From NCBI GenBank assembly GCA_021787615.1, contig JAJYLP010000003.1, forward strand, positions 37,812-101,811: DNA of 64,000 nucleotides, read 5' to 3'. The DNA is from Pseudomonadota bacterium (lineage in GTDB: Bacteria; Pseudomonadota; Gammaproteobacteria; Steroidobacterales; Steroidobacteraceae). The translations under genes were made by a program, and so were the position numbers. Positions 3,450 through 8,697 of the stretch are shown here, one piece after another. The first letter of the stretch is position 1. Each line of letters starts with the position of its first letter. The notes below the pieces were generated by a model. That model saw nothing but the letters and a program-made list of their open reading frames with translations, was not told the origin of the DNA and did no database searches.

Positions 3450-4853
3450 ATGACGCAACTGATCGATCAACTGGCGGCCGCGCTCGGCCGGGACGCCGTC
3501 TTGAGCGGCGCGGCCGCGCGCGAAGCGCGTGATGCCGCGCAGACTCACGGGCTCGCCGTCGATCTGGGCGCGCCGCTTGCGGTCCTGCGGCCCCGCACGA
3601 CCGCCGATGTGGCGCGCATTCTCAGGTTCGCGCATGCCGCAGGCCGGGCCGTGGTGCCCTGGGGGGGCTGCACGGGGCTCGTGGATGGAGCGAGCGCCGA
3701 GGGCGCGCTGGCGCTGTCGCTCGAGCGGATGAACGCCATCGAGCAGATCGACGAGACCCACCGCGTGATGCGCGTGCAGGCCGGCTGCATTCTGCAGAAG
3801 GCCTGTGAGGGGGCCGAGGCCCGCGGCCTGCTCCTGCCGCTCGATCTGGGCGCGCGCGGCTCCGCCACCGTAGGCGGGGTGATCGCCACCAACGCCGGCG
3901 GCAATCGGGTGCTGCGCTGGGGGATGACCCGCGACATGGTGCTCGGGCTCGAGGCGGTGCTCGCCGACGGCACGGTAATCAGCACGCTGAACACGCTCAT
4001 CAAGAACAACGCGGGCTACGATCTGAAGCAGCTGTTCATCGGCTCGGAGGGCACGCTCGGCGTCGTGACGCGCGCCGTGCTGCGCCTACGCCCGAAACCG
4101 CTGAGCGAAAACGTCGCGCTGCTCGGCGTGGACGCGTTCGAGCACCTGCCGCGCACGCTCACGCGGCTCGAGCGCGAGTTGGGCGGCTCGCTGTCATCCT
4201 TCGAGGTGATGTGGGCGGAGTTCTACCGTCTGGTGACGACGGCGCCGGCGCTCGGCCGGCCGGTCCTGCCGCACGGCCATCGGTTCTATGTCCTGGTCGA
4301 GACCCGCGGGGTGAATGTGCCGGCCGATGCGGAGCATTTCGAGCACGTGCTCGCGGGCGCGCTCGAGGCCGGCGAGGTGGCCGATGCGGTCATTGCCAAA
4401 TCGGATACCGAGCGCAAGGCAATGTGGGGCCTGCGAGACGACGTGCCGCAGGTGACGCGCGAGGGGCCGATGTGCGCGTTCGACGTAAGCCTCAAGATCG
4501 ACGACATGCCGGGCTACCTGGACGAAGTCCACCGCGCGCTGAGCGCGCGCTGGGGAAGCGAGTGCCGTTTCGTGGTGTGGGGTCATCTCGGTGACGGGAA
4601 CCTGCACTTGATGGTCGGATTGAAGGACGCATCGCCGCAGGCGCAACACGAGATCGAGGCACAGGTCTACGGCGCGCTCGCGAGGCGCCCCGGATCGTCG
4701 ATCTCCGGCGAGCACGGCATCGGCTTGCAGAAGCGCGCCTACCTGTCGTGCTCGCGCACGCCGGAGGAAATCGCGCTGATGCGCACGCTCAAGACGGCGC
4801 TCGATCCGCGCAACATCCTCAATCCCGGCAAGGTGCTCCCCGGAACCGGCTGA
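3450..4853 (+). CDS. FAD-binding oxidase, GlcD/D-lactate dehydrogenase-like
   Basis: VVPWGGCTGLVDGA, NNAGYDLKQLFIGSEGTLGVVT, EHGIG and C-terminal LDPRNILNPGKVLP motifs. Confidence 0.88.
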   Translation: MTQLIDQLAAALGRDAVLSGAAAREARDAAQTHGLAVDLGAPLAVLRPRTTADVARILRFAHAAGRAVVPWGGCTGLVDGASAEGALALSLERMNAIEQIDETHRVMRVQAGCILQKACEGAEARGLLLPLDLGARGSATVGGVIATNAGGNRVLRWGMTRDMVLGLEAVLADGTVISTLNTLIKNNAGYDLKQLFIGSEGTLGVVTRAVLRLRPKPLSENVALLGVDAFEHLPRTLTRLERELGGSLSSFEVMWAEFYRLVTTAPALGRPVLPHGHRFYVLVETRGVNVPADAEHFEHVLAGALEAGEVADAVIAKSDTERKAMWGLRDDVPQVTREGPMCAFDVSLKIDDMPGYLDEVHRALSARWGSECRFVVWGHLGDGNLHLMVGLKDASPQAQHEIEAQVYGALARRPGSSISGEHGIGLQKRAYLSCSRTPEEIALMRTLKTALDPRNILNPGKVLPGTG

Positions 4854-4940
4854 ACCGACGCCGCCATGCCTCGGCGGGCCGGGCAGGGCCGCGGGGTCGC
4901 ACCGGCTGCGCGGCCTGAGATCGCGCGCCGTGCGGCGGCC
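4796..4940. repeat. Left copy of an approx. 145-bp degenerate direct repeat (tail-to-tail oxidase gene junction)
   Basis: ggcgctcgatccgcgcaacatcctcaatcccggcaaggtgct...ctgagatcgcgcgccgtgcggc aligns with 7424-7568. Confidence 0.75.
4861..4940 (-). pseudogene. C-terminal remnant of an LldD-like FMN oxidase gene
   Basis: Reverse-strand reading GRRTARDLRPRS...PGPP resembles the intact C-terminus CRTVRDLGPHLLRGPGVPPSR of the gene at 7501-8697. Confidence 0.6.
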
Positions 4941-4980
4941 ATTCATTCATTTCTTGCCGGTGGCTTTAGGACGTGGATCG

Positions 4981-7185
4981 ATGCGCAAACGACTGATGGG
5001 ATGTCTGCTGGCCGTGGCGCTTGCGCCATGCGCGCACGCGGCCAAGCCACCGTCGATCGGGGGTGGGCCGCGCCTTCAGGTCTTCACCATCAATCACCAG
5101 CTTCGAGCGAATTCCAGAGCCGACGTGCGTTTCCTGCTGTCCGCGCCTGCGGGCAAGGCGGGTTTCATCCGCGTTGCCGGCGGCCACCTGGTCACGCCGG
5201 ATGGCAAACGCTTTCGAATCTGGGGCGTCAACGTGACCGGTTGGACTCCAGGCTCGGCGTTGCTCCCCCCCAAACAGGACGCCAAAATCTATGCGCGGGC
5301 CTTGGCGCAACTGGGCGTGAACTGCGTTCGCTTCCAATTCCTGGATTTGACCAAGCAGCAACATCGCGCGGCGGGGAGCACTCCCGTCACCTACACGCCC
5401 AGCGGTCTGTTGGATGCAGATGCGCCCACGAGCCAGGTCATGGACCCAGGCCAATTGGACCGCCTCGATTATCTCGTCTACCAACTGAAGAAGAACGGGA
5501 TTTACGTCGACTTTAACCTCAACGTCGGCCGCCGCTACAAGAAAGGAGACGATGTCCGCGACTACAAGCTGATTGGCGTCGCAAAGGCGATCACGGAATT
5601 TGACCCGCGCCTGATCCAGCTTCAGAAAGACTACGCACGGCAGTTGCTGACCCACTTCAACCCCTACACAAAGACGCGATACAACGACGAGCCGGCAGTC
5701 GCCATCGTCGAAATCGTAAATGAAAACTCGCTGCTCGAGTTTTGGCAGAGGAATTGGCTCCGGGGCAAGCTCGTGCCCGGCGCGCCGCGCTTCCAGCTCG
5801 ATTTGACGCCCTATTACAAAGCGATGCTGACGCGCCAGTACAACAGTTGGTTGCAAGCGACGTACTCTCCGGCCGAGCTCGGCCGCCTTCGCAAGCTGGC
5901 CGGTCTCAGCGCGGGAAAGCCCTTTGCAATTACCCAGAGGCAGGATTTCGACTCAACTCCCGCGCCGGTTTTCTATGCCGAAGCGGCCTTTTTTAACCAT
6001 GTTGAGAGCAGCTTCCTTCAAAACATGCGCTCGTACCTCAAGCAGACGCTTCACGTGAAGTCTCTGATCATGGGGACGGCCGACCACACCTATTTCATCC
6101 CCGGCATGCCCCTACTGCGCGCCAATTCGAAAATGGATATTGTGGGCGCGCACGGCTATTGGCAGCATCCTGCGATCACGGTTCACCGCAACACTCCGAT
6201 GGTCGACGATCCGCTGCACTCGCTGCCCGTCTTACTCAGCCGCTCAACAATGGCCGATAAGCCTTTCATCGTCAGCGAGGTGAACGAGCCGTTCCCCAGT
6301 GACTACGAAGCCGAGCTGATCCCGATTCTGGCTGCTTACGGCGCGTTCCAGGATTGGGATGGGATTTTCATTTATAGCTTCGAGCCCAAGGTGACTGGCT
6401 TGTGGCGCCCGGTGATCGGCGACCATTTTGATATTTCGGAAGATCCGGTCAAGATGGCGCAGATGCCCGTAGGCGCGCTTCTGTTCCTGCGCCACGATGT
6501 CGCTGCGGCCAAAAGAATCGTCGAGCGCACTTATTCGACGCAGCAGGTTGACGAGAGCATGCGCCTCCCGCAGTCCTTCATGCCGTACTTCACTCCTGGC
6601 TTCCCGCTCTTCCTGCCCCTCGAGCATGGCTCGCGCATCCGCTGCCTGGATTGCCAGCCAACCCAGGGCTTTCATGACGAGCCGTCCAACCCTTTCCGCT
6701 CCGACACCGGACAGTTGGCCTGGTGGCATTCGCGTGCCAAAGGAGGCTTGGTCACGATTGACACGCCCAGGAGCACGGCGCTCGTCGGCTTCGTTTCAGC
6801 CTATGGGGCTGGCACCTCGCACTTATCCGCCGACGTTGAAAACATGTTCTGCGCCATCACCCTGTCCTCGCTGGATGGCAAGCCGTTGTCGACATCGTCC
6901 CTGATGCTGCTCACCGCAACCGGCAGAGTCGAAAACACCGGCTCGGTCTGGAATGCAAGCCGCACCGACTTCAGTGTTTGGGGCAAGGCGCCGACGCGCA
7001 TCGAGGTGATCCGCGGCTGGGTGAAGCTGAAGGACATCGTCGGAGCGGTGGGGATGATCGTCACCCCGCTCGATGGCGAATCCCGTCCTCTGGGCGAGCT
7101 GCGGGGCAAAATGGTCGAAACCGGCTGGGACATTCCCATCGGCGCCCACCCGGCCACCAGCTACCTGATTCACGTCATTCGCTGA
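4981..7185 (+). CDS. Secreted glycoside hydrolase with GH5/clan GH-A-like catalytic domain
   Basis: Signal peptide MRKRLMGCLLAVALAPCAHA; VTPDGKRFRIWGVNVTGW, IVEIVNENSLLEFW (acid/base-type NE), VSEVNEPFP. Visibly lower GC than neighbours. Confidence 0.7.
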   Translation: MRKRLMGCLLAVALAPCAHAAKPPSIGGGPRLQVFTINHQLRANSRADVRFLLSAPAGKAGFIRVAGGHLVTPDGKRFRIWGVNVTGWTPGSALLPPKQDAKIYARALAQLGVNCVRFQFLDLTKQQHRAAGSTPVTYTPSGLLDADAPTSQVMDPGQLDRLDYLVYQLKKNGIYVDFNLNVGRRYKKGDDVRDYKLIGVAKAITEFDPRLIQLQKDYARQLLTHFNPYTKTRYNDEPAVAIVEIVNENSLLEFWQRNWLRGKLVPGAPRFQLDLTPYYKAMLTRQYNSWLQATYSPAELGRLRKLAGLSAGKPFAITQRQDFDSTPAPVFYAEAAFFNHVESSFLQNMRSYLKQTLHVKSLIMGTADHTYFIPGMPLLRANSKMDIVGAHGYWQHPAITVHRNTPMVDDPLHSLPVLLSRSTMADKPFIVSEVNEPFPSDYEAELIPILAAYGAFQDWDGIFIYSFEPKVTGLWRPVIGDHFDISEDPVKMAQMPVGALLFLRHDVAAAKRIVERTYSTQQVDESMRLPQSFMPYFTPGFPLFLPLEHGSRIRCLDCQPTQGFHDEPSNPFRSDTGQLAWWHSRAKGGLVTIDTPRSTALVGFVSAYGAGTSHLSADVENMFCAITLSSLDGKPLSTSSLMLLTATGRVENTGSVWNASRTDFSVWGKAPTRIEVIRGWVKLKDIVGAVGMIVTPLDGESRPLGELRGKMVETGWDIPIGAHPATSYLIHVIR

Positions 7186-7420
7186 GGGCCCCAATGGTTC
7201 GGGCGTCCGGTCGACTCACGGAGCGCGAAGATCGCTTGCGCATCAGGCCGGCCACGCTGCGCCGGCGGGCGAACCGGCTCGGAGATCGGCATCGCGCCAG
7301 CCCCCGGGCCACCCATACGTCGGGGTGCTGCAGGGCAGTCGCGCTCTGATCGAGTACACCGAGCACCGAGCGGCCCCCGCGAGGCGGGGATTCGCCACGG
7401 CGCAGCGGGCGGAATAGCTG

Positions 7421-7483
7421 GCAGCGGCGCCCGATCCGCGCAACACCCTCAACCCCGGCAAGGTGCTCGCCGAATCCGACTGA
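7421..7483 (+). pseudogene. C-terminal remnant of the GlcD-like FAD oxidase gene
   Basis: Reads LAAAPDPRNTLNPGKVLAESD*, matching LKTALDPRNILNPGKVLPGTG* of 3450-4853. Confidence 0.75.
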
Positions 7484-7568
7484 ACCGATGCCGCCGTGCC
7501 TCAGCGGCTGGGCGGAACCCCGGGGCCGCGCAGCAGATGCGGCCCGAGATCGCGCACCGTTCGGCAGC
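7424..7568. repeat. Right copy of the approx. 145-bp degenerate direct repeat
   Basis: See 4796-4940; separation about 2628 bp. Confidence 0.75.
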
Positions 7569-8697
7569 TCAGCTGACCGAGCACGCGGTCGAGCTCGACC
7601 GTGAGCATCTCCAGGGCGCGCCGCACGCCGGCCTCCCCGGCCGCTGCGAGTCCATAGAGCGCCGCCCGTCCCACCAGCACCGCATCGGCGCCGAGGGCGA
7701 GCGCCTTGGCGATGTCGGTGCCGCGCCGAAAGCCGCTGTCGATCAGCACGGTGAGGCGGTCGCCGACCTCGGCGGCGATTTCGCCGAGCACCTCGATGGG
7801 CGCGACACAGTAATCAAGCTGGCGGCCGCCGTGATTGGTGAGCACGACGCCATCGCAGCCGAGCTCGGCGGCGCGGCGTGCATCGGCGACGCTGAGCACG
7901 CCCTTGATGAAGAGCTTGCGCGGCCAATGCTCCCGCACCCACGCGATGTCCTCCCACGTGATGGTGGGAAGGAACATCTGCGGAATGATGGTGCTGCCGC
8001 CGACCGCATTCGCGGCGCCCGGCGGCAGGAAGGCCTCGATGTTGCGGAAGCTCGGGATACCGTGACGCAGAAGGACTTGCGTCAGCCAACGGGGATGGCG
8101 GAGTGTGTCGAGCGCCGCGCGCAGGCGAGGGTGACCGGGCGTGCGGTAATTGCGTTTGTCCCATTCACGGCTGCCGAACACGTTCGCGTCGGTGGTGAAC
8201 AGCAGCGCCTCGTAGCCGCTCGCCGCCGCGCGGTGCATGATGTCTTCGGCGATCGCGCGATTGCGCATCACGTAGAGCTGCATCCACAGCCGGCCGCCGG
8301 CCTGCTTTGCCACCTCCTCCAGCAGCGTCGTCGAAACAGTGCTCAGCGTATAGGGAATGCCGAAGGCGGCGGCGGCCCGCGCGAGGGCAATGTCGCCGTG
8401 CGGATGCAGCATGCCGTTCAGACCCGTCGGGGCGATTGCAAGTGGTGCGCCGCACGGTGCGCCAAGCAGTTCTGTGGCGAGGCTGCGCCCCTCGGTGTTG
8501 ACGAGCGTCGGCGGAACGAACCGCAGCGCCGCGAACGCCTCGCGGTTGCCGCGCAGCGTCGCTTCGTCCTCGGCGCCGCCCTCGACGTACTCGAAGGCGA
8601 AGCCCGGCACGCGGCGGCGCGCCGCTTCGCGAAGATCGGCGATGTTCAACGCCGCGCTGAGATCGCGCCCGGTGTAGGGACGGCGTTTCCAGGGCAT
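7501..8697 (-). CDS. lldD-like: FMN-dependent alpha-hydroxy-acid oxidase (LldD/glycolate oxidase family)
   Basis: FAFEYVEGGAEDEATLRGN, FIKGVLSVADARRAAELGCDGVVLTNHGGRQLDY, DSGFRRGTDIAKALALGADAVLVGR. Confidence 0.92.
   Translation of the reverse strand: MPWKRRPYTGRDLSAALNIADLREAARRRVPGFAFEYVEGGAEDEATLRGNREAFAALRFVPPTLVNTEGRSLATELLGAPCGAPLAIAPTGLNGMLHPHGDIALARAAAAFGIPYTLSTVSTTLLEEVAKQAGGRLWMQLYVMRNRAIAEDIMHRAAASGYEALLFTTDANVFGSREWDKRNYRTPGHPRLRAALDTLRHPRWLTQVLLRHGIPSFRNIEAFLPPGAANAVGGSTIIPQMFLPTITWEDIAWVREHWPRKLFIKGVLSVADARRAAELGCDGVVLTNHGGRQLDYCVAPIEVLGEIAAEVGDRLTVLIDSGFRRGTDIAKALALGADAVLVGRAALYGLAAAGEAGVRRALEMLTVELDRVLGQLSCRTVRDLGPHLLRGPGVPPSR

Follow-up and report, generated by a model that had tools for sequence, protein, structure and literature searches.

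A predicted secreted glycoside hydrolase of acidobacterial type has been captured in a proteobacterial genome, at the point where a GlcD-like FAD-linked oxidase gene (glcD) and an LldD-like FMN-dependent dehydrogenase gene (lldD) converge tail to tail. The junction between these two border genes is present twice in the analyzed DNA (a stretch of 64,000 nucleotides, referred to as the window), once on each side of the hydrolase. We assign a probability of roughly one-half to the reading that the hydrolase entered by a single homologous crossover with a circular molecule, which would have duplicated ∼340 bp of the junction. Both border genes are intact, and their orthologues occur elsewhere in the genus (for glcD, in 12 genus genomes at 80 to 100% identity), although the GlcD-like oxidase scores below the NCBIfam glcD equivalog cutoff.

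The two junction copies are direct repeats of 145 and 144 bp (Table 1), with an offset of 2630 between their starts and an identity of 80.7%, gaps included, by BLAST. The initial annotation had placed repeats of about 145 bp at these positions, and their similarity is significant: the pair gives a local alignment score of 148, compared with 34 as the highest of 500 shuffles. Each repeat contains the 3′ ends of both genes, and the truncations are reciprocal, as had been described. The left copy carries the intact glcD end (stop codon at 4853) and then a noncoding remnant of the lldD 3′ end, which scores 49 (shuffle maximum, 39) when aligned alone to the intact lldD tail. The right copy carries a glcD tail outside any gene, DPRNTLNPGKVLAESD*, and then the intact lldD end (from 7501). 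In G030, one of two other genomes that carry the hydrolase at this junction, the right-hand glcD stub corresponds to glcD nucleotides 1147 to 1404 (258 nt, 86 codons) and is 84% identical to that genome's own glcD, with lower identity to every other glcD; the left lldD remnant of G030 is almost gone, and its alignment alone is not significant. The window has lost most of the right-hand glcD stub by deletion or decay. Because the stub is longer in G030, the block originally duplicated was ∼340 bp long rather than 145 bp and comprised the junction with the final ∼86 codons of glcD on one side and the final ∼22 codons of lldD on the other. The ∼145-bp repeat is thus present as first described but is better regarded as the decayed remainder of this longer block.

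Table 1. Features of the doubled glcD-lldD junction and its insert, in window positions
Feature	Position	Strand	Basis
GlcD-like FAD-linked oxidase, intact, left border gene	3450..4853	+	PF02913, PF01565; genus orthologues
Left junction copy	4795..4939	+	81% identical to 7425-7568; score 148 vs shuffle maximum 34
lldD 3′ end remnant, ∼22 codons, coding lost	4867..4939	-	Aligned to intact lldD tail; continuous with rest of repeat
Short leader, lldD remnant to hydrolase start	4940..4980	+	Common to G008 and G030 (left-flank alignment)
Predicted secreted (beta/alpha)8 glycoside hydrolase, 734 aa, cargo	4981..7185	+	Homologues, tree, conserved Glu, weak GH5 profile match
DNA from hydrolase to right repeat	7186..7424	.	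7197-7369 shared with G008 and G030
Right junction copy	7425..7568	+	Same repeat alignment
Decayed glcD tail, 59 nt remaining (258 nt in G030)	7425..7483	+	88% to own glcD
LldD-like FMN-dependent dehydrogenase, intact, right border gene	7501..8697	-	PF01070 E=5e-131; orthologues across genus

Five relatives (G387, G388, G029, G026, and G023) have the convergent glcD and lldD genes uninterrupted, on one contig each, with 16 to 21 bp between the two stop codons and no insert. The hydrolase is found at the junction in only 3 of the 37 genus genomes searched, namely, the window genome (G000), G008, and G030, which are the three closest genomes; it is therefore not syntenic in all relatives, a pattern that would have spoken against capture. 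Across the class, other hydrolase matches were obtained in 2/321 genomes, both of them weak and partial. A literature search for these metagenome-assembled genomes (MAGs) by name found nothing. Since the filled state occurs in three separate assemblies, in one case on a 242 kb contig, assembly error can be ruled out. Given the empty junction in five relatives and the restriction of the cargo to these three genomes, the filled state is derived, and the ancestral tail-to-tail junction postulated in the initial annotation, doubled in the window, is the arrangement found in the relatives. The filled site retains all of the junction DNA seen at the empty sites, with no deletion of recipient DNA. 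The converse history, an ancestral filled state from which relatives lost the hydrolase cleanly, is extremely improbable, as the empty junctions lie in several separate lineages and the 16- to 21-bp gap would have to be restored each time; the lower GC content and acidobacterial kinship of the cargo also argue against it, and no evidence in its favor was found.

The composition of the hydrolase gene differs from that of its surroundings, with a GC content of 60.2% (GC3, 76%) compared to about 68 to 73% (GC3, mostly 84 to 92%) in the neighboring genes, in agreement with the lower GC content that was initially noted. Its closest known relative is a protein from an Acidobacteriaceae MAG (JASHOY010000296.1, locus L050), with 81% amino acid identity; the DNA identity is 78% over the whole gene, and the similarity stops at the stop codon. 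The family was found in 29 of 300 Acidobacteriaceae genomes (about 10%), at 46 to 50% identity, and in the tree the window clade is nested and joined with the L050 protein with support of 100/100. The L050 homologue lies among CAZyme genes, its neighborhood encoding an alpha-galactosidase, an alpha-L-fucosidase, a beta-helix protein that weakly matches GH141, an alginate lyase, a LacI regulator, and an outer-membrane receptor of the carboxypeptidase-regulatory type. Judged from its position in the tree, its patchy distribution in the genus, and its atypical composition, the cargo is kin to Acidobacteriaceae genes and was acquired by cross-phylum horizontal transfer. That the gene moved into the proteobacterium is inferred from its composition and patchy distribution and not from rooting alone. 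The hydrolase is foreign, which supports the capture described in the initial annotation. The accompanying suggestion, that a segment of a related locus had been integrated by homologous recombination, stands in part: homologous integration is plausible, but the nearest known relative of the cargo is in the Acidobacteriaceae, and only the junction fragment looks native.

The three filled sites share their breakpoints. The point at which lldD similarity ends on the left and the leader that precedes the hydrolase are common to G000, G008, and G030, as are ∼170 bp after the hydrolase (window positions 7197 to 7369; score of 84 against G030, shuffle maximum of 42). This last segment matches neither glcD nor the acidobacterial downstream flank, and a genus-wide DNA search with it returned only G008 and chance-level matches. 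Because the breakpoints are common to all three genomes, the comparison points to a single insertion event in the ancestor of these three close species. Separate insertions in the G030 lineage and in the G000/G008 lineage would account for the seven sites at which G000/G008 differ from G030 in both junction copies, all of which match the other copy in the same genome, with none matching across genomes. Such insertions would also account for a dS in the cargo twice that of its neighbors (0.41 versus 0.10 to 0.21). However, the twofold ratio also holds between G000 and G008 (0.19 versus 0.06 to 0.11), so it reflects rate, probably through amelioration. As 7/7 informative sites match the genome's own other copy, the copies were homogenized by gene conversion within each genome after the species split. 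Two separate insertions are accordingly very unlikely, and we rejected them on the identical left breakpoint and the shared ∼170-bp segment.

A transposon, insertion sequence, or integrase element could likewise leave foreign cargo flanked by direct repeats, but here the repeat derives from ∼340 bp of host gene DNA, far beyond a target-site duplication. There is no transposase or integrase reading frame within positions 4854 to 7500, the insert consisting of a single gene, and carriage by such an element is hardly credible. The initial annotation had likewise seen no need for an insertion sequence or integrase.

The arrangement is best accommodated by insertion-duplication. A donor circle (a plasmid or a recircularized fragment) would have carried the hydrolase together with a junction fragment bounded by the final ∼86 codons of glcD and the final ∼22 codons of lldD. 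A single crossover between this circle and the chromosome would yield, in order, the whole left gene, a stub of the right gene, the cargo, a stub of the left gene, and the whole right gene. The stubs would then have decayed and the two junction copies would have undergone gene conversion in each lineage, with the hydrolase kept by purifying selection. The order expected of the crossover product is the arrangement found, which favors this reading. As in Campbell-type insertion-duplication, for example the lacZ duplications of Escherichia coli (PMC3240628), repeats of the target segment lie on both sides of the insert, no target DNA has been lost, and each border gene is present once whole and once as a stub. 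In E. coli conjugation, 56 of the 60 analyzed integrants of one class had such duplications, and in 14 sequenced single-crossover integrants the duplications flanking the insert measured 109 to 950 bp (PMC3240628), i.e., a few hundred base pairs, as does the ∼340-bp block. Unlike the lacZ cases, the present one is natural and old, its cargo comes from another phylum, and its copies have decayed to 81% identity.

The circle itself is the costly part of the single-crossover reading, since it would already need the acidobacterial gene joined to a native junction fragment. Plasmid records searched for a close hydrolase homologue yielded none, the best match having 27% identity over 64%. We know of no circular donor for the hydrolase and junction fragment. 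Illegitimate joining or template switching during replication, in which foreign linear DNA becomes attached to the two sister copies of the locus at unequal positions (one lying 22 codons into lldD, the other 86 codons before the glcD stop) and the overlap is duplicated, would produce the same structure in one step with no preassembled circle. Also in its favor, the left breakpoint and the DNA after the cargo have no homology to the acidobacterial flanks. Homology-facilitated illegitimate recombination resembles the present case in that foreign DNA enters without mobile-element functions; such events, however, mostly delete target DNA (PMC3240628), whereas here nothing was deleted and a segment was duplicated. 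Ku was not found in the window's own genome, so another end-joining or fork-switching route would be needed. We regard joining of this kind as possible but less likely than the single crossover. Decay and conversion have erased the divergence between the left and right copies at time zero, and a homologous and an illegitimate origin therefore look alike today.

No match to ComEC (PF03772) was obtained in the 31 genus genomes searched, 28 of which have a completeness of ≥90% and a contamination of ≤5%, compared with matches in 10/14 controls, and the genus may thus lack canonical DNA uptake. Together with the failure to find Ku in the window's own genome, this makes transformation and Ku-dependent end joining less likely. 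Merodiploid formation by natural transformation (PMC3784515) is similar in that a duplication accompanies uptake when part of the incoming DNA is repeated in the chromosome, but those duplications span ∼100 to 900 kb, whereas the one described here is 0.3 kb and lies in a genus without detectable ComEC. A further alternative begins with tandem duplication of the glcD-lldD region, followed by later entry of the hydrolase and loss of the redundant parts. The likeness of the right-hand stub to the genome's own glcD is what this history predicts; conversion also explains it, at least two events are needed, and a plain tandem duplication is not seen in relatives. We consider it improbable, and the tandem duplication followed by replacement offered in the initial annotation adds a step that nothing here requires.

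Other genomes of the genus also vary around these genes. The lldD gene of G388 (L080:6437-7618) is 90.6% identical to that of the window, compared with about 85% for the adjoining genes, a mosaic pattern that suggests homologous exchange in lldD inside the genus. A G388-like donor of the lldD side was considered and rejected as an account of the insertion, given this mosaic pattern and the low resemblance of the right-hand glcD stub to G388 (75%). In another clade, the glcD/lldD junction is occupied by 2.3 to 2.5 kb with a GGDEF (diguanylate cyclase-like) reading frame, in G012 (L043:8104-10399) and G004 (L044:1787-4281), with an additional reading frame in the latter; there is also a 1.7 kb stretch, possibly a different insert too, in G390 (L081:145-1867). 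Flanking duplications were searched for at these three inserts, and none were found. The GGDEF inserts show that the spot tolerates insertions, with no common mechanism implied. It is doubtful that the junction acts as an integrase-free capture slot in the genus, receiving a hydrolase in one clade and a diguanylate cyclase in another by repeated entry via homology to the ends of the border genes. In G003 (L035:7563-9743), a large predicted secreted protein, glycoamylase-like by eye, adjoins lldD; glcD is missing there, and a glcD remnant was looked for and is absent. In G013, a similar protein, again glycoamylase-like by eye, is encoded close to both gntR and the lldD tail (L046:3932-5389), and reverse-transcriptase/maturase-like frames, by eye of the group II intron type, are also near the lldD tail (L046:1569-3163).

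The hydrolase is under purifying selection, given a dN/dS of 0.13. Two residues, Glu248 (in an NEN motif) and Glu433, are invariant in 15 homologues and also in distant ones, and are candidate catalytic residues at clan GH-A-like positions. The window protein has no match above the Pfam or NCBIfam cutoffs. A profile of the 15 homologues weakly matches GH5 mannanases (E=1e-4), and only 1 of the 15 reaches the Cellulase family (E=0.022); the protein does not reach GH5 membership by sequence. Foldseek returned GH5/GH164 mannanase and mannosidase matches from a low-confidence model (mean pLDDT, 52). Like the GH5-type mannanases and GH164 mannosidases of clan GH-A, the protein may have a barrel fold, with a candidate Asn-Glu acid/base and a later candidate Glu nucleophile, but it differs from them in its length of about 700 amino acids with an uncharacterized C-terminal part and in matching no curated family.

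The mechanism is already known from experiments, and for a specialist the case is neat rather than surprising, an instance of ordinary gene capture. It is nonetheless a natural case, and a well-preserved one, of gene gain across phyla, with a defined empty site, a dated clade, shared breakpoints, and no mobile element, in which a duplicated host segment keeps a record of the joining; most footprints of this kind are lost. The capture also placed a member of an uncharacterized family of predicted secreted hydrolases beside genes for sugar uptake and oxidation: the surrounding cluster encodes an AraD1/GguC-type enzyme, a FucP/GluP-type transporter, an arabinose/ribose-type ABC transporter, and an SDR. 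Plausibly, the hydrolase frees sugar that is taken up by this cluster of sugar-transport and sugar-acid oxidation functions.
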